Made by a program: the position numbers and the translations under genes
NCBI RefSeq assembly: GCF_011174775.1
Contig: NZ_JAANHS010000003.1
Location: forward strand, 186,001 to 250,000
Direction of reading: 5' to 3'
Length of the DNA stretch: 64,000 nt
DNA from: Rhodobacter calidifons
GTDB taxonomy: Bacteria > Pseudomonadota > Alphaproteobacteria > Rhodobacterales > Rhodobacteraceae
Shown here: positions 51,051 through 61,986 of the stretch, one piece after another
Layout of the letters: every line of letters begins with the position of its first letter
Numbering within the stretch: the stretch's first letter is position 1
The notes under the pieces: model-generated
What the model was told of the DNA's origin: nothing
Seen by the model: the letters and a program-made list of their open reading frames with translations, nothing else
The model's database searches: none

Positions 51051-52667
51051 TCAGCCCTTTCCGATGGCACGGGCAAGCGCGGCCGTGACGGCGCTTTCGT
51101 CGAACCTGTCCCAGCGGGCGGCGACATGCTGGTCCGGGCGGATCAGATAGACGGCCGAGCGCGCCTCTCCCAAATAGCGGGCGGTCAGTTCCGGCGTGGC
51201 GGTCAGCGCCAGGCGCGCTACGGTCAGGCCGTGGGCGTCCAGGCTGTCGGGCGCGTCGGCATCGATCGTCATCAGCGTGAAGCCCCGCCCGAGACGGTTC
51301 AGCAGCCAGCCATCCGCCACCGGCGCATCCGGGCAGGGGCTGCCGGGACGGGTGCGGGCGGGCATCGCGGGAAGATCCGGGCCGTTCAGCGCCGAGCCGT
51401 CATAGGTGCAGGGCACCGAAAGCCGGCCCGAGTTCACCACGGTGCGGGCGAAGGGCAGATGTTCGGCCAGCGTCAGCACCGCGTTGCGGAACAGCTTCGA
51501 CACCGGGGTCTTGGGCGTGATGAAATCCGTCGCCCGGGTAGAGTTCAGGATGTTCTCGTCGGCGCCGAAGACACGTTCGGCATCATAGCTGTCCAGCAGC
51601 GTCTCGGGCGCGGTGCCGTCCAGCACCAGCGCCAGTTTCCAGGCCAGGTTGTCCACGTCCTGGATGCCCGAATTCGCGCCCCGCGCGCCGAAGGGGCTGA
51701 CCTGATGCGCCGAGTCGCCCGCGAACAGCACCCGGCCATGGCGGAACCGCTCCATCCGGCGGCACTGGAAGGTGTAGATCGAGCACCAGTCCAGCTCATA
51801 CTCCACATCCGGTCCCAGCATCGCATCGACGCGGGCGCGGATGCGGGCCGGCTCCAGCTCCTTCGCGCGGTCGATGTTCCAGCCCAGCTGGAAGTCGATG
51901 CGCCAGATGTCGTCGGGCTGCTTGTGCAGCAGCGCGGAATCGCCCGACTTGAAATGCGGCTCGAACCAGAACCAGCGTTCGGTCGGGAAATCGGCCTTCA
52001 TCTTCACGTCGGCGATCAGGAAGTTGTCCTCGAACACCCTCCCGTCGAAACTGAGCCCCAGCATGCCCCGCAAGGGGCTGCGGGCGCCGTCGCAGACGAT
52101 CAGCCAGTCGGCCTGAAGCTGGTAGGGTCCGTCCGGCGTCAGTATGTCCAGCGTCACATGATCATCGGCCAGGCTGACGGCATCGACGCGGTTCCGCCCC
52201 CGCAGCTCGATCGGCGCGCCTTCGGCCTGCGCCGCCAGGATGGCGTCGTGCAGGAACTTCTCGAACCAGGGCTGTTGCAGGTTGACGAAGGCCGGGAAGG
52301 CATGGCCGCCCTCGGGCAACAGGTTGAACTCATACAGTAGCCGGTCGTCGTGGAACACCTTGCCGACGTTCCACTGCACGCCCTTCTCCAGCATCGGCCC
52401 CGCCGCGCCCAGCCGGTCGCAGATCTCCAGCGTGCGCTTTGCAAAGCACAGCGCCCGGCTGCCCAGCCCCGCGCCTTCGTGGTCGTCCAGCAGCAGCACC
52501 GGCACTCCGCGCCGGCCCAGGTCCAACGCCATGGCCAGGCCGACCGGGCCGCCGCCCACGACGATCACCCGGTGGCGGATCGGCGTGGCGGCATCCTGAT
52601 CGGGCGACCGCTGATAGGGATAGAGGCGGAACGCCAGCGCGTAGCGTTCCGGAAGGCGTTCGGTCAT
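51051..52667 (-). CDS. FAD-dependent aromatic hydroxylase, probable 3-hydroxyphenylacetate 6-hydroxylase (MhaA-like)
   Basis: 538 residues, group A flavin monooxygenase. FAD loop HRVIVVGGGPVGLAMALDLGRRGVPVLLLD, DG motif LIVCDGARSPLRGMLG, GD motif RVLFAGDSAHQVSPFGARGANSGIQDVDNLAWKLALVL, and a C-terminal thioredoxin-like part (SAVYLIRPDQHVAARWD). Next to hmgA/fahA and a tiny partner gene, it most likely hydroxylates 3-hydroxyphenylacetate to homogentisate. A related phenol or resorcinol substrate cannot be excluded from sequence. Confidence 0.85.
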   Translation of the reverse strand: MTERLPERYALAFRLYPYQRSPDQDAATPIRHRVIVVGGGPVGLAMALDLGRRGVPVLLLDDHEGAGLGSRALCFAKRTLEICDRLGAAGPMLEKGVQWNVGKVFHDDRLLYEFNLLPEGGHAFPAFVNLQQPWFEKFLHDAILAAQAEGAPIELRGRNRVDAVSLADDHVTLDILTPDGPYQLQADWLIVCDGARSPLRGMLGLSFDGRVFEDNFLIADVKMKADFPTERWFWFEPHFKSGDSALLHKQPDDIWRIDFQLGWNIDRAKELEPARIRARVDAMLGPDVEYELDWCSIYTFQCRRMERFRHGRVLFAGDSAHQVSPFGARGANSGIQDVDNLAWKLALVLDGTAPETLLDSYDAERVFGADENILNSTRATDFITPKTPVSKLFRNAVLTLAEHLPFARTVVNSGRLSVPCTYDGSALNGPDLPAMPARTRPGSPCPDAPVADGWLLNRLGRGFTLMTIDADAPDSLDAHGLTVARLALTATPELTARYLGEARSAVYLIRPDQHVAARWDRFDESAVTAALARAIGKG

Positions 52668-52688: not shown

Positions 52689-53639
52689 TCAGCCCTGAAG
52701 CGCCGCCCACATCTCCAGATCGCGCTGGGCGGTCCAGATGCGGGGATGGCCGATCCCGCGGGCCTCGTCATAGGCGCGGGCGACGTTGAAGGGCAGGCAA
52801 TGTTCGTAGATGGCGTAGTCCCGGAACTTCGGATCGCATTCCGCCCGGCAGGCCTCCCAGGCTTCCTTCAGGGTGCCGTTGCGAGCCGCGACACGGGCCA
52901 CGGGCCGGTAGGTCGATTCCACGAAATCCTTCGTCCGGTCCAACGCCGCGTTCACCGCCGCACGGCCCACCACCGCATCCCCCCTGCCTGGAGCGATCGC
53001 GTCCAGATCATAGGCGCGGATCGCCTCCAGCGTGCCTCCCCAGTCGGCGAAATGGCCGTCGCCGCAATAGCAGGCGGAATGCGCCTCGACGATGTCGCCG
53101 GTGAACATCACGTTCTGGTCAGGGACATGGATCACCGCATCGCCTGCGGTATGGGCGCGGCCCAGTTGCAGGATGTCCACCCGCCGATTGCCCAGCCAGA
53201 CCGTCATCTTCCCGTTGAAGGTGGTGGTCGGCCAGGTCAGGCCGGGGATGTCCTCATGCCCCTGGAACAGGCGGGGAAAGCGCTGGAACTCGCTGTCCCA
53301 ATCCTCCTGCCCGCGCTCGGCCACCATGTTGCGCGCGGCTTCCGACATGATGATCTGCGGGGCCTTGAAGGCCGACGCCCCCAGCACCCGCACCGCGTGG
53401 TAATGCGTCAGCACGAGGTGAGAGATGGGCTTGTCGGTCACGCTGCGGATGCAGTCGATCACCTTCTGCGCGAGGCGGGGCGTGGCCTGCGCCTCGACTA
53501 CCATCACAGACTGATCGCCGATGATGACGCCCGAGTTCGGGTCGCCCTCGGCGGTAAAGGCGTAAAGGCCCTCGCCGATCTCGGTGAAGCTGATCTGCTT
53601 CCCGCTCAGGTCGCCTTGGGATGCGAAAGCCTTGGCCAT
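52689..53639 (-). CDS. MBL-fold hydrolase of the homogentisate cluster
   Basis: 316 residues. The usual HxHxDH is altered: HYHAVRVLG keeps both His but has Val-Arg for Asp-His. HTAGD and FTGDIVE are conserved, so at most one metal site is complete. GEGLYAFTAEGDPNSGVIIGDQSVMVVEAQAT is the fold start. It lies 3 bp after fahA and 21 bp before the hydroxylase. Role unknown: possibly hydrolysis of a lactone or thioester feeding the pathway. Confidence 0.85.
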   Translation of the reverse strand: MAKAFASQGDLSGKQISFTEIGEGLYAFTAEGDPNSGVIIGDQSVMVVEAQATPRLAQKVIDCIRSVTDKPISHLVLTHYHAVRVLGASAFKAPQIIMSEAARNMVAERGQEDWDSEFQRFPRLFQGHEDIPGLTWPTTTFNGKMTVWLGNRRVDILQLGRAHTAGDAVIHVPDQNVMFTGDIVEAHSACYCGDGHFADWGGTLEAIRAYDLDAIAPGRGDAVVGRAAVNAALDRTKDFVESTYRPVARVAARNGTLKEAWEACRAECDPKFRDYAIYEHCLPFNVARAYDEARGIGHPRIWTAQRDLEMWAALQG

Positions 53640-53642
53640 GGT

Positions 53643-54899
53643 CTAGGTCCTTGCATAGGGGTCTTCAAGCGCGGGCAGCACCTTGCCGGAGCAGTCGCCG
53701 AAACCGATGGTGTAGCCATCCCCGCGGCACCATCCGCGCAGGGTGAGGGTGTCGTTGTCCTCGATGAAACTGCGGCTGCCGCCCGCGATCACGATGGGTT
53801 CCTTGCCGCCCCAGGACAGTTCCAGGAGGCTGCCGCGGCTGTCCTTCGTCGGCCCCGAGATCGTGCCCGACCCCAGCAGGTCGCCGGTGTTCATCGGGCA
53901 GCCGCAGGTGGTGTGATGCGCCAGCTGCTGGGCGGCCGAGTAATACATCTCGGCGTAATTGGTCCGGGCGATCACGGTTTCCGTCCCGCCTTCCGGCGTC
54001 AGCCCGACCTCCAGCGCGATGTCGTACAGCATCGGGCGCGGCTCGTGCAGGTAGGGCAACAGCGGCTTCTCCCGCGCAGGCGTCGAGGTGCGGAACGGCT
54101 CCAGCGCCGCGCGCGTCACGATCCAGGGGCTGATCGTCGTCGCCGTGGCCTTGGCCTGGAAGGGCCCCAGCGGCTGATATTCCCAGGCCTGGATGTCCCG
54201 CGCCGACCAGTCGTTCAGAAGGACATAGCCGAAGATCATCGCGTCCGCCTCGGCCACCGTCACCGGGCCTTCGGACGGCAGTCCCACCACCGCGCCCAGT
54301 TCCAGCTCGATGTCGAACCGGGCCGAGGGCGCAAAGCGCGGCGCGGCATCCTCCGGCCCCTTCAGCTGCCCCCAGGGCCGACGCACCGGCGTGCCCGAGA
54401 CCACCACCGACGACGCCCGCCCGTTATATCCGATGGGGATATGCAGCCAATTCGGCGGCAGGGCATTCTCGGCCCCCCGGAACATGGTGCCGACATTGGT
54501 CGCATGGTGCCGCCCGGCGTAGAAATCGGTGTATTCGCTGACCAGAAACGGCATGTGCAGGGTTGCACCGGCCAGAGGCACCAGGAAGGGCGCGACAGCC
54601 GCCCTCTCGGCCGCTCCTTCCGCGAGCAGGGCGGTCAGCCGGTCGCGCAGGGCGGCCCAGACCGCCGGCCCGGCTTCCATCAGGTCGTTCCAGAACGGCA
54701 CGTCCAGGAAGGGGCCACCGGACAGGGCAACAAGCCCCGCCTCCTCCAGCCCCGCCACATCCAGCACGAAATCCCCGATGGCCACGCCGCAGCGCGGATC
54801 GCCGCCCGGCATCGAGAACACGCCGCAGGGCAGGTTGTTCAGCGGAAACGGATGGTCCGGCGCATTGGCGCTTTCGACCCAGGATCGCAGCAGCGGCAT
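53643..54899 (-). CDS. fahA: Fumarylacetoacetase
   Basis: 418 residues. Catalytic region VSEYTDFYAGRHHATNVGTMFRG (metal Asp, base His), metal ligands in FDIELELGAVVG and LLNDWSARDIQAWEYQPLGPF, and GDLLGSGTISGP. Cleaves fumarylacetoacetate into fumarate and acetoacetate, the final homogentisate step. Confidence 0.95.
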   Translation of the reverse strand: MPLLRSWVESANAPDHPFPLNNLPCGVFSMPGGDPRCGVAIGDFVLDVAGLEEAGLVALSGGPFLDVPFWNDLMEAGPAVWAALRDRLTALLAEGAAERAAVAPFLVPLAGATLHMPFLVSEYTDFYAGRHHATNVGTMFRGAENALPPNWLHIPIGYNGRASSVVVSGTPVRRPWGQLKGPEDAAPRFAPSARFDIELELGAVVGLPSEGPVTVAEADAMIFGYVLLNDWSARDIQAWEYQPLGPFQAKATATTISPWIVTRAALEPFRTSTPAREKPLLPYLHEPRPMLYDIALEVGLTPEGGTETVIARTNYAEMYYSAAQQLAHHTTCGCPMNTGDLLGSGTISGPTKDSRGSLLELSWGGKEPIVIAGGSRSFIEDNDTLTLRGWCRGDGYTIGFGDCSGKVLPALEDPYART

Positions 54900-54965: not shown

Positions 54966-56327
54966 TCACTTGACGCCCGGCGTCCCGTCGAACTTCTTCT
55001 CCAGCGACCCCCAGCAGTCGATGTAGTCCTCTTGCAGATGGCCTGCCTGTGCCGCGAAGGGCGTGAGGTGCTGCGGGAAGCGGGTCTCGAACATGAAGGA
55101 CATGGTGTCCTCCAGCTTCTCGGGCTTCAGCGCGGCGTTCGAGGCGCCCTCGAAGGCCGTCTTGTCCGGCCCGTGCGGCAGCATGCAGTTGTGCAGGGAC
55201 ATGCCGCCGGGGACAAAGCCCTTGGGCTTGGCATCATAAACGCCATAGATGTTGCCCATCAGTTCCGACATGACGTTCTTGTGGTACCAGGGCGGACGGA
55301 AGGTGTTCTCGGCCACCATCCAGCGTTCGCGGAACAGGACGAAATCGATGTTCGCCGTCCCCTCGACGCCAGAGGGCGCGGTCAGCACGGTGAAGATCGA
55401 CGGATCGGGATGGTCGAACAGGATGGCGCCCACCGGGCAGTAGGTCCGCAGGTCGTACTTCACCGGCGCGTAATTGCCGTGCCAGGCCACCACGTCCAGC
55501 GGCGAATGGCCGATCTTCGTCTCGTGGAACTGGCCGCACCACTTGACGGTGACGGTGGACGGCACCTCCCGGTCCTCGAAGGCCGCCACGGGCGTCTTGA
55601 AGTCGCGGCGGTTGGCCATGCAGTTGGCGCCGATCGGCCCGCGGCCGGGAAGCTGGAACTTCTGCCCGTAGTTCTCGCAGACGAAGCCCCGCGCCGGACC
55701 TTCCAGCACCTCGACCCGATAGACCAGCCCGCGCGGCAGGATGGCGATTTCCTTCGGCTCCAGGTCGATGATCCCAAGCTCTGTGCAGAACCGCAGCCGG
55801 CCCTCCTGCGGCACGACCAGCAGCTCGCCGTCGGCCGAGAAGAAATATTCGTCCCGCATCGAGGTGTTGACCAGATACATGTGGCTGGCCATGCCCGTCT
55901 GGGTGTTCACATCCCCCGCCGTGGTCATCGTCCGCATGCCGGTGATCCAGGTCAGCGGTTCGTCGGGCACCGGCAGCGGGTCCCAGCGATACTGGCCAAG
56001 GCTGACGATGTCCGGGTCGATGCAAGGCGCCGATTTCCACAGCGGCACGTCGATCTTGCGGAAGCGGTGCGTGTGCTTGACGCTCGGCCGGATGCGGTAG
56101 CACCAGGTACGCTCGTTCTGATGGCCGGGCGCGGTGAAGGCCGTGCCCGACAGTTGTTCGCCATAAAGCCCGTAGTTGCATTTCTGCGGGCTGTTCATCC
56201 CCTGCGGCAGCGCGCCCGGCAGCGCCTCGGTCTCGAAGTCATTGCCGAAGCCAGGCATGTAGCCCTCATGCGGGCCGGCGATGGATGCGGCGCGGATCAT
56301 GCCCTTGGGAAGGGAATGGCTGGTCAT
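54966..56327 (-). CDS. hmgA: Homogentisate 1,2-dioxygenase
   Basis: 453 residues from ATG 56327, with a near-perfect AAGGAGGT ribosome site. [18 protein letters not shown], iron ligands in [15 protein letters not shown] and [14 protein letters not shown], and [12 protein letters not shown]. Opens the ring of homogentisate to maleylacetoacetate. First gene of the minus-strand operon. Confidence 0.96.
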
Positions 56328-56397
56328 TTGCACCTCCTTTTGGCGGGGTGGCATCGGGGACTCGGATCCGCCCTTGCCTGGGCGGTGCTTTTGGTCT

Positions 56398-56445
56398 TGT
56401 ATAGTTGCTAATGCAACCAAGTCAAGAACAAGTTGCATCTGCAAC
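56398..56445. promoter_or_regulatory. hmgA/maiA divergent control region with two MarR-type palindromes
   Basis: GTTGCTAATGCAAC (56404-56417) and GTTGCATCTGCAAC (56432-56445; GTTGCA-TC-TGCAAC perfect), centres 28 bp apart. For hmgA (minus strand) -35 TTGACT is at 56420-56425 and -10 TATACA at 56398-56403, spacer about 16, so site 1 fills the spacer and site 2 lies upstream. Both overlap the expected maiA promoter. Confidence 0.8.
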
Positions 56446-56459
56446 GAACTGGAGACACC

Positions 56460-57089
56460 ATGCCCGAGACGGTGCTGTATGATTACTGGCGGTCCTCGGC
56501 CGCCTACCGGGTGCGGATCGGGCTTCACCTTCTGGGCCTGCCCTTCCGGGCGGTGCCGGTCGATCTGACGGCGGGGCAGCAGCGCGGCCCGGACAATCTG
56601 GCGCGCAATCCGCAGGGTCTGGTCCCGGTGCTGGAGATCGACGGGCTGCGCCTGACGCAATCGCTGGCGATCCTGGAATACCTGGACGAGACGCGGGGCG
56701 CGGGCTGGCTGCCGGGCGATGCCGCCGCGCGGGCCGAGGTGCGGGCCATGGCCCATGCGGTGGCGATGGACACCCATCCCGTCTGCAACCTGCGCGTGGC
56801 GCAGCACGCGGTCTCGCTGGGCGCGACGATGGAGGGCTGGATGCGGCATTTCATCCCCCTGGGCCTTGCGGGGCTGGAGGGGCTGATGCAGCGCCATGCC
56901 GGGGGACGGTTCAGCCATGGCGACGGGGTGACGCTGGCCGACCTGTGCCTTTTGCCGCAGATCTACAATGCCCGGCGCTGGGGGGTGGACCTTGCCCCCT
57001 TCCCGCGGGTGGCCGAAGTCGCGGCGGCCCTTGAGGCTCTGCCCGCCTTCCAGGCGGCGCATCCCGACCGGGCGAGACCCACGCCATGA
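56460..57089 (+). CDS. maiA: Maleylacetoacetate isomerase
   Basis: 209 residues from ATG 56460 (GGAG upstream). Zeta-class GST with [22 protein letters not shown] (glutathione site), [29 protein letters not shown] and the C-domain [22 protein letters not shown]. Converts maleylacetoacetate to fumarylacetoacetate. It overlaps the MarR gene by ATGA and is divergent from hmgA. Confidence 0.93.
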
Positions 57090-57550
57090 CCGATCCGGCC
57101 GACGATTTCGATTTGCAGGACTTCCTGCCTTACCTGTTGAACCAGGCGGCCGAGGCGACCTCGCGCGGGTTTCAGGCGGCCTACCGCGACCGCTATGGCT
57201 TCACGCGCACGCAATGGCGGGTCATGGCCAATCTGGGCAAGTTCGGCGCGATGACCGCGCGCGACATCTGCGCGATCAGCCATATCGAGAAGACCAAGGT
57301 CAGCCGCGCCGTGGCCGCGCTGGAACAGGCGGGCCTCCTGTCCCGCGCGCCCAGCGCGACCGATCGCCGCGCCGAGCTGTTGTCGCTGACGGGGCAGGGT
57401 CGCGCGGTCTTTGCCGAGCTTGGCGGGCTCGCGCTGGCCTTCGACCGTCAGCTGCGCGCCGTGCTGGGCACCGAGGATGCCGAACGGCTGGTCAGCCTGC
57501 TGCGACGGCTGGCCCAGGCCGTCCCGCCGGGCGCGGGCGCCGAGGACTGA
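57086..57550 (+). CDS. MarR-family repressor of the homogentisate cluster
   Basis: 154 residues. Winged helix: [71 protein letters not shown]. Coupled to maiA. The P. putida pathway uses an IclR-type HmgR, so this is the alternative MarR form. Homogentisate or a related acid is the likely inducer. Convergent with the aminotransferase gene, 5 bp apart. Confidence 0.9.
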
Positions 57551-61144: not shown

Positions 61145-61936
61145 TCAGGCCGCGCCGAAGCGCGCAACTGCGGCGCGGAACGTGGCCGGCGGACGGCCGC
61201 CGATGCCCGCGTTCAGCGTCTCGGCCTCGGCGAACAGCGCGGCGATGATCTGGCGGCGCAGGTCGTTCGTCATCCGGTGCGCCGGCACCGCGACCGCAAT
61301 CGCCCCGGTTGCCGTTCCGTCGGTGTCGAAAACCGGCATGGCGATGCCATAGACATCGTCCTCGTTGGTCTGGTCGGCCTCGGCATAGCCGGTCAGCCGA
61401 ACCTCTTGCAGCCGCGCGCGGATCACCTCCGCATCGGTGGGCGTGCGCGAGGTGCGGGCGGCCAGCGGCTCGGCCAGCAGCCGGTCCACCAGTTCGGGGC
61501 GCGAGAAGGCCAGGACTGCCAGGCCCGATGCCGTGCTGTGGAACGGCAGGATCTCGCCCGCCACCAGCGAGACCCGGCTGCCCCGGCTGGCCTCGCAGAC
61601 CCCGATGGTCGCCAGCGCCCGGCCCGAGATCAGCGAGGCATGCGCCGTCTCGCCGATCTGCGCCGACAGCGCCTCCAGCGACTGTTGGAAGACCGACGAG
61701 ACCGGAAAGGCCGTCTCGCGCACCCGCGCCAGCCGCAGAACGCCCGCGCCCAGCCGGTAAAGCCTTGCATCGCCGCGCTTTTCCAGAAGGCCGTGGTCGC
61801 ACATGACCGCCAGCATCCGGTGCACGGTCGCCTTGTCCACGCCCGACCGGCGGGCCAGTTCGGACAGGCCGATCTCGGGCTCGGAATCCGAAAAGTAATC
61901 CAGCAGAGACAAGGCTTTGGCTACCGTGCTTGACAA
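61145..61936 (-). CDS. IclR-family regulator of the aldehyde/TTT locus
   Basis: 263 residues if TTG 61936 is the start (GGGGGT seven bases upstream); upstream TTG/GTG codons to 61969 are alternatives. Winged helix TVAKALSLLDYFSDSEPEIGLSELARRSGVDKATVHRMLAVM and effector domain (LPFHSTASGLAVLAFSRPEL, YGIAMPVFDTDGTATGAIAVAVP). It lies between its two probable targets, the aldehyde dehydrogenase operon and the divergent tct operon. Confidence 0.88.
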   Translation of the reverse strand: MSSTVAKALSLLDYFSDSEPEIGLSELARRSGVDKATVHRMLAVMCDHGLLEKRGDARLYRLGAGVLRLARVRETAFPVSSVFQQSLEALSAQIGETAHASLISGRALATIGVCEASRGSRVSLVAGEILPFHSTASGLAVLAFSRPELVDRLLAEPLAARTSRTPTDAEVIRARLQEVRLTGYAEADQTNEDDVYGIAMPVFDTDGTATGAIAVAVPAHRMTNDLRRQIIAALFAEAETLNAGIGGRPPATFRAAVARFGAA

Positions 61937-61986
61937 GATGTGACCCCCAACTTCCGCCCGGACCAACAAACCCGCGCCAAAAAACG

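Follow-up and report, generated by a model that had tools for sequence, protein, structure and literature searches.

Paired palindromes in the hmgA/maiA promoter region of Rhodobacter calidifons as proposed operators of the adjacent MarR-type regulator

Our analysis of a 64,000 nt stretch of Rhodobacter calidifons DNA (contig NZ_JAANHS010000003.1, positions 186,001–250,000, assembly GCF_011174775.1; in the following the window) leads us to propose that the adjacent MarR protein very probably has its operators in two palindromes GTTGC-N4-GCAAC, situated between the divergent genes hmgA and maiA. It would repress both operons and would be released by an aromatic acid, for which homogentisate or one of its close precursors is the most likely candidate. 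The assignment of the palindromes to this MarR protein is well supported by the comparison with related sequences; DNA binding, repression, the effector and the boxes of the maiA promoter we infer. The proposal offers a concrete operator, a promoter geometry and a candidate cognate repressor for homogentisate catabolism in the Rhodobacteraceae, for which the nearest precedent found is the HmgS prediction in a few gammaproteobacteria.

On the minus strand of the locus hmgA (54966–56327), coding for homogentisate 1,2-dioxygenase (TIGR01015, 657.5 bits with a cut-off of 511), is followed in its operon by the fumarylacetoacetase gene fahA as second gene (53643–54899; TIGR01266, 480.5 bits, above the NCBIfam cut-off) and by genes for a metallo-beta-lactamase-fold protein (52689–53639) and an FAD monooxygenase (51051–52667), both kept in many relatives. 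On the plus strand lie maiA for maleylacetoacetate isomerase (56460–57089; TIGR01262, 234 bits with a cut-off of 171) and the gene of a MarR-family regulator of 154 amino acids, the proposed repressor (57086–57550; Pfam MarR_2, 58.6 bits). The identities hmgA, maiA and MarR, which had been given in a sequence-only reading of this locus, are thus upheld by the NCBIfam and Pfam profile scores. The start codon of marR overlaps the stop of maiA with four shared bases (57086–57089), so that both genes are probably co-transcribed. At 61145–61969 of the window, 3.6 kb from marR, there is also an IclR-family regulator gene (PcaR/PcaU-like, below the cut-off), which is found in several relatives too.

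Both palindromes lie within the intergenic region (56328–56459) and are without mismatch: operator 1, GTTGC TAAT GCAAC, extends from 56404 to 56417 and operator 2, GTTGC ATCT GCAAC, from 56432 to 56445. They are 28 bp apart as had been claimed, measured from centre to centre, with 14 bp in between, and are the only exact copies in the 64 kb. In dinucleotide shuffles the exact motif occurred on average 0.07 times per window, and two or more copies were found in 0 of 100 shuffles. When up to two mismatches were allowed no enrichment was seen in the window (29 sites found, 34.9 expected), so the signal resides in the exact form. The whole genome of 3.62 Mb contains six exact sites, and the four outside the hmgA/maiA promoter are all within open reading frames. 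On the minus strand the hmgA −35 box TTGACT (56425–56420) and the −10 box TATACA (56403–56398) are separated by a spacer of 16 bp, which palindrome 1 occupies exactly; here the sequence-only reading proved correct. An A+T-rich −10-like box is recognizable by eye in the relatives. It is hardly conceivable that the palindromes arose by chance or form an RNA structure or terminator instead of a protein site. Short palindromes with mismatches are indeed frequent, as the above count of 29 shows, but the exact form is enriched, a box between −35 and −10 is upstream of any hmgA transcript, and the box is conserved across genera at a fixed distance from TTGAC.

MarR proteins bind palindromes as dimers. 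A MarR dimer on operator 1 would block the hmgA promoter between −35 and −10 and would at the same time overlap the −35 proposed for the maiA-marR promoter, which reads in the other direction. This putative promoter (56405–56433, plus strand) was placed from the spacing and comprises a weak −35-like TTGCTA within operator 1 and the −10-like ACAAGT at 56428–56433. The latter is a poor match, which counts against the operator model; the corresponding elements in relatives are better (TAAAGT, TATCTT, by eye). Read on the other strand, the TTGC of box 1 lies 17 bp before a −10-like element (by eye), and a single dimer could therefore block both directions. A second dimer on operator 2, which lies over the likely −10 and transcription start of maiA, would cover these and tighten autorepression. 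Upon demand for the pathway, both operons would be released by the aromatic acid binding to MarR, with homogentisate or one of its close precursors as the most likely ligand.

The position of the box was compared among relatives. A protein search with the MarR of the window gave 40 loci, in 29 of which hmgA is found beside marR or maiA-marR. Upstream of hmgA in these 29 loci 21 boxes are exact, three have one mismatch and five loci have neither. The sequence-only reading would have been refuted by relatives of identical gene order without the palindromes, and it withstood this check: where the order hmgA-maiA-marR is shared the palindrome was never missing, being exact in 18 of 20 loci and changed by one mismatch in the other two (L015 and L016, which are alike). 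In nine loci maiA is absent and marR is directly opposite hmgA. The box is still present between them, exact in L011, L030 and L031 and with one mismatch in L036, and the remaining loci of this kind (L032–L035 and L037) have a changed box together with a changed MarR. The site hence remains with marR where maiA is missing. Observations that count against the proposed operator come from five relatives with hmgA adjoining marR, which do not have the motif in its GTTGC form, and from L020 and L029, where the gene of a close MarR is present but no site was found and no hmgA start lies within the stretch examined.

Pooling these loci with those of the family search described below gave 73 distinct hmgA upstream regions, 43 of them with an exact box. 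In 41 of the 43 the sequence TTGAC follows 3 bp beyond the box, i.e., the overlap of box and hmgA promoter is kept, and the four central bases are variable, mostly A-N-N-T. The pair is less constant. With up to two mismatches and within 60 bp a second box was found at exactly 28 bp in 11 of the 43 regions (relatives or the window itself) and four times at other spacings (L047, L052 and twice in L066). About half of the relatives with maiA first have a single box only, which makes the pair an optional refinement. The comparison with relatives thus supports the earlier idea that the placement allows control of both directions by MarR, but one box already spans both promoters, and the second palindrome, although real in the window, is an optional extra over the −10/start region of maiA.

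The motif search in other family genomes which the earlier reading had called for was done with the pattern box-N3-GTCAA in 198 genomes, with MarR not used as bait and with the reversed pattern as control. The pattern matched in 27 genomes and the control in 6, and 25 of the 27 matches are in homogentisate-pathway clusters. Twenty-one of the 27 places are at hmgA and two at fahA (69–86 bp); of the remaining four, one is separated by about 240 bp from the operon's gene for the metallo-beta-lactamase-fold protein, one by about 890 bp from fahA, and two (L054, L067) are outside pathway clusters and within reading frames. A MarR gene is present within a 3-kb stretch at 19 of the 27 places. Of the 198 genomes 130 have hmgA, most of them without the exact form of the box and many with a changed box. 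Three family genomes (L055, L064 and L072) are without an hmgA match at E 1e-60; their box is grouped with fahA and with a gene for a MarR of about 43–49% identity.

An architecture common to the whole class was considered and rejected. Among 289 genomes across the class the pattern matched in six, the window included (control pattern in two), and the other five matches are inside long reading frames, next to which no pathway gene was found. From this we conclude that the architecture is a feature of the family and of a few Rhizobiales and relatives, not of the class. Of these Rhizobiales and relatives, L013, L019, L023 and Pannonibacter (L011) have the exact box and L015 and L016 the one-mismatch box. 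Likewise rejected was a genome-wide tyrosine regulon, since the genome has no further intergenic exact site and no site with up to two mismatches is present at the hpd locus, which encodes an earlier step of the pathway. The regulon therefore looks local, and the missing site at hpd counts against the operator model.

The regulator itself has the MarR winged-helix domain and passes the gathering score of two Pfam profiles, MarR_2 (E 6.8e-16) and MarR (E 5.5e-13). Its AlphaFold model (pLDDT 90) predicts a MarR fold, and the best Foldseek matches are MarR regulators with TM values of 0.7–0.8. In the model the recognition helix comprises residues 69–81; residue 68 is just before it, and E68 and T70 are at its start. 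The protein gave no match to the IclR_C domain and only a sub-threshold match to HTH_IclR. The best NCBIfam match is HpaR (TIGR02337), a MarR protein of similar fold (7el3) that regulates a related operon for aromatic ring cleavage, but an identification with HpaR was rejected, as 52.7 bits were reached and 121.2 bits are required.

In Variovorax paradoxus MarR_73/IadR, a sensor of indole-3-acetate, S28 and R46 are described to coordinate the carboxylate of the ligand (PMC9613470). Residues S26 and R45 of the MarR protein in the window align with S28 and R46 of MarR_73 (chain 7krh of the S28A R46A mutant), which makes an aromatic acid the probable effector. Among the Foldseek neighbours are MarR proteins with salicylate, benzoate and 6-hydroxynicotinate, HpaR on DNA and NadR with 4-hydroxyphenylacetate. 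Of the 76 rows of the MarR alignment 69 have S26 and 75 have R45; distant MarR kin conserve both to the same degree, and these residues therefore do not single out homogentisate. It might therefore be argued that MarR binds the boxes and answers to another ligand such as 4-hydroxyphenylpyruvate, 3-hydroxyphenylacetate or maleylacetoacetate. The ligand residues indicate only the class of aromatic carboxylates, and the FAD monooxygenase of the hmgA operon could open the pathway to other aromatics. We nevertheless regard another ligand as less likely, since HmgR of Pseudomonas putida, which controls the same genes, has homogentisate as anti-repressor according to PMC5343134, and since induction by an intermediate formed before the repressed step would be a common design. 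Homogentisate is for this reason our first choice as effector.

Could the boxes be bound by another regulator, with the adjacent MarR being a bystander? The type-D MarR paralogue that some relatives encode next to the aminotransferase gene, or a regulator encoded elsewhere, might be considered. In L008–L010 a second MarR (35–37% identical) has its own exact GTTGCN4GCAAC upstream, and the MarR designated type C below, only about 40% identical, adjoins the same box. On the other hand the genome of the window has a single MarR match at E 1e-20 or better, the box tracks the adjacent marR through rearrangements of the locus, and a changed recognition helix goes along with a changed box. We therefore consider a different regulator very improbable and retain the adjacent MarR as the proposed repressor. 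The second MarR gene of the three loci (L008:5509–5949, L009:5613–6053 and L010:5470–5949) lies between marR and a class III aminotransferase gene, and this second, distant MarR gene is missing from the corresponding place in the window.

The MarR proteins found beside hmgA fall into three groups. Type A, to which the protein of the window belongs, has Glu or Asp at position 68 and Thr or Ser at position 70, and its box is GTTGC-N4-GCAAC. Type C (38–46% identical to the MarR of the window) has Asp or Glu68 and Ser70 and the same box. Type B (46–55% identical) has His68 and Thr70, and the type B loci with an hmgA start all have GTAAC as right arm and mostly GTTG in the left arm. We had considered that the type B box might be an unrelated motif, which was rejected, as it proved to be a half-changed version of the GTTGC box. 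For MarR kin across the class that combine Asp68 and Val70, the region upstream of the gene coding for the MarR itself often contains GTTTC-N4-GAAAC.

We therefore tentatively suggest, with somewhat less than even confidence, that in these MarR repressors of Alphaproteobacteria residues 68 and 70, located where the recognition helix begins, may read base four of the half-site GTTNC. In this possible code Glu/Asp68 with Thr/Ser70 would go with GTTGC, His68 with Thr70 with a hybrid of GTTG- and GTAAC (in two cases GTTAC in both arms), and Asp68 with Val/Ala70 with GTTTC or GTTAC. For the arm counts, given as the fourth bases of both arms, own-genome copies, L104–L108, identical proteins and ORFs covering fewer than 100 model positions were omitted, and strict counts comprise boxes with the other eight arm positions perfect. 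Strict boxes of proteins with acidic residue 68 and Thr/Ser70 (n = 38) were 36 GG and 2 GA; with acidic 68 and Val/Ala70 (n = 37) we counted 20 TT, 12 mixed T/A, 3 with one G and 2 GG, and for His68 with Thr/Ser70 (n = 7) 4 GA, 2 AA and 1 GG. With one mismatch allowed the His68 proteins (n = 44) gave 40 GA, 2 AA, 1 GG and one without a box, the proteins with acidic 68 and Thr/Ser70 (n = 54) gave 39 GG, 2 GA, 1 GT, 2 TG and ten without a box, and 19 of 63 proteins with acidic 68 and Val/Ala70 were boxless. Exceptions with GTTGC boxes are a type-D row having Gly68-Val70 and two further rows that combine acidic 68 with Val/Ala70; in some cases the box may be that of the neighbouring type-A MarR.

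The rule was fixed before 60 fresh loci were fetched, and its prediction was then scored as arm match out of 10. Where G was predicted the best form had G in 9 of 9 loci, only one of them at 10/10 and two scoring just 7. Where A was predicted (His68 and Thr70) the GTAAC arm was present in 9 of 9, the other arm being GTTG. Of the 32 loci with T predicted, 8 match GTTTC/GAAAC perfectly, 7 combine a T arm with a different one (score 9), 2 are contrary (GTTAC/GCAAC in L140 and L148), and 15 have no site scoring at least 9 and are thus uninformative. On the whole the fresh loci mostly follow the rule. In the remaining 10 of the 60 the residues are outside the rule. The clearest exception is one of these ten, L187, whose MarR with His68-Ala70 has a perfect GTTGCN4GCAAC box and speaks against a role of His68 alone. 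On a tree of 133 of the 167 rows (site-less rows and far outliers dropped) the state of residue 70 changes about three times and His68 about two times, which is too few for significance, and kinship inflates the counts. With about three evolutionary changes and the contrary loci L140, L148 and L187 we reject the code as a proven result and regard it as a strong lead. If the code were true, a catabolic repressor could be redirected to another operator by very few substitutions, and few such rules are known for the family. Since the pathway promoter is kept while repressor and operator have changed together, these loci form a natural series for testing the DNA choice of MarR proteins.

Co-evolution of proteins and their DNA sites has reportedly been studied for the GntR, IclR, LacI and MerR families. 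For one MarR protein recognition-helix residues are described to contact bases directly (PMC3737563). The sequence-only reading had also seen the MarR protein as a replacement of the IclR-type HmgR of pseudomonads. This idea is already known from HmgS, a predicted MarR-family regulator of hmgAB in Alteromonadales (3 genomes, 6 sites), which PMC5343134 assigns to the homogentisate genes by comparative genomics in place of HmgR. The locus described here resembles it in having a MarR-family protein beside the hmg genes and a conserved site upstream; HmgS is from Gammaproteobacteria, and the comparison covers protein family, gene neighbourhood and presence of a site. P. putida HmgR resembles our candidate as a local repressor of the homogentisate operon but has the IclR fold and family. 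For Shewanella PMC3223726 describes a LysR replacement. MarR_73/IadR shares with the protein of the window that it is a MarR repressor of an aromatic-acid catabolic locus with the operator ahead of the controlled operon (PMC9613470), but it senses indole-3-acetate and is only about 28% identical. The available portions of PMC13273656 and PMC2529317 contain nothing on a MarR regulator of hmgA, and our search of the open literature, with subscription papers and RegPrecise itself outside its scope, gave no paper on this operator in the Rhodobacteraceae or on a MarR base–residue code. Homogentisate-responsive parts of this kind might be of use as biosensors.

Two further arrangements were seen among the MarR loci. 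In genome G138 (L062 and L090) a type-B MarR is found beside hmgA, and a separate type-C MarR with a GTTGC box lies near the genes of the metallo-beta-lactamase-fold protein and the FAD monooxygenase, as though two repressors had divided the regulon between them. In L116, L130, L135 and L137 remote HmgA homologues (25–27% identical) are encoded near MarR genes, with a perfect GTTTCN4GAAAC upstream of marR in three of these loci and a near copy in the fourth, which suggests a sister pathway with the same repressor design.
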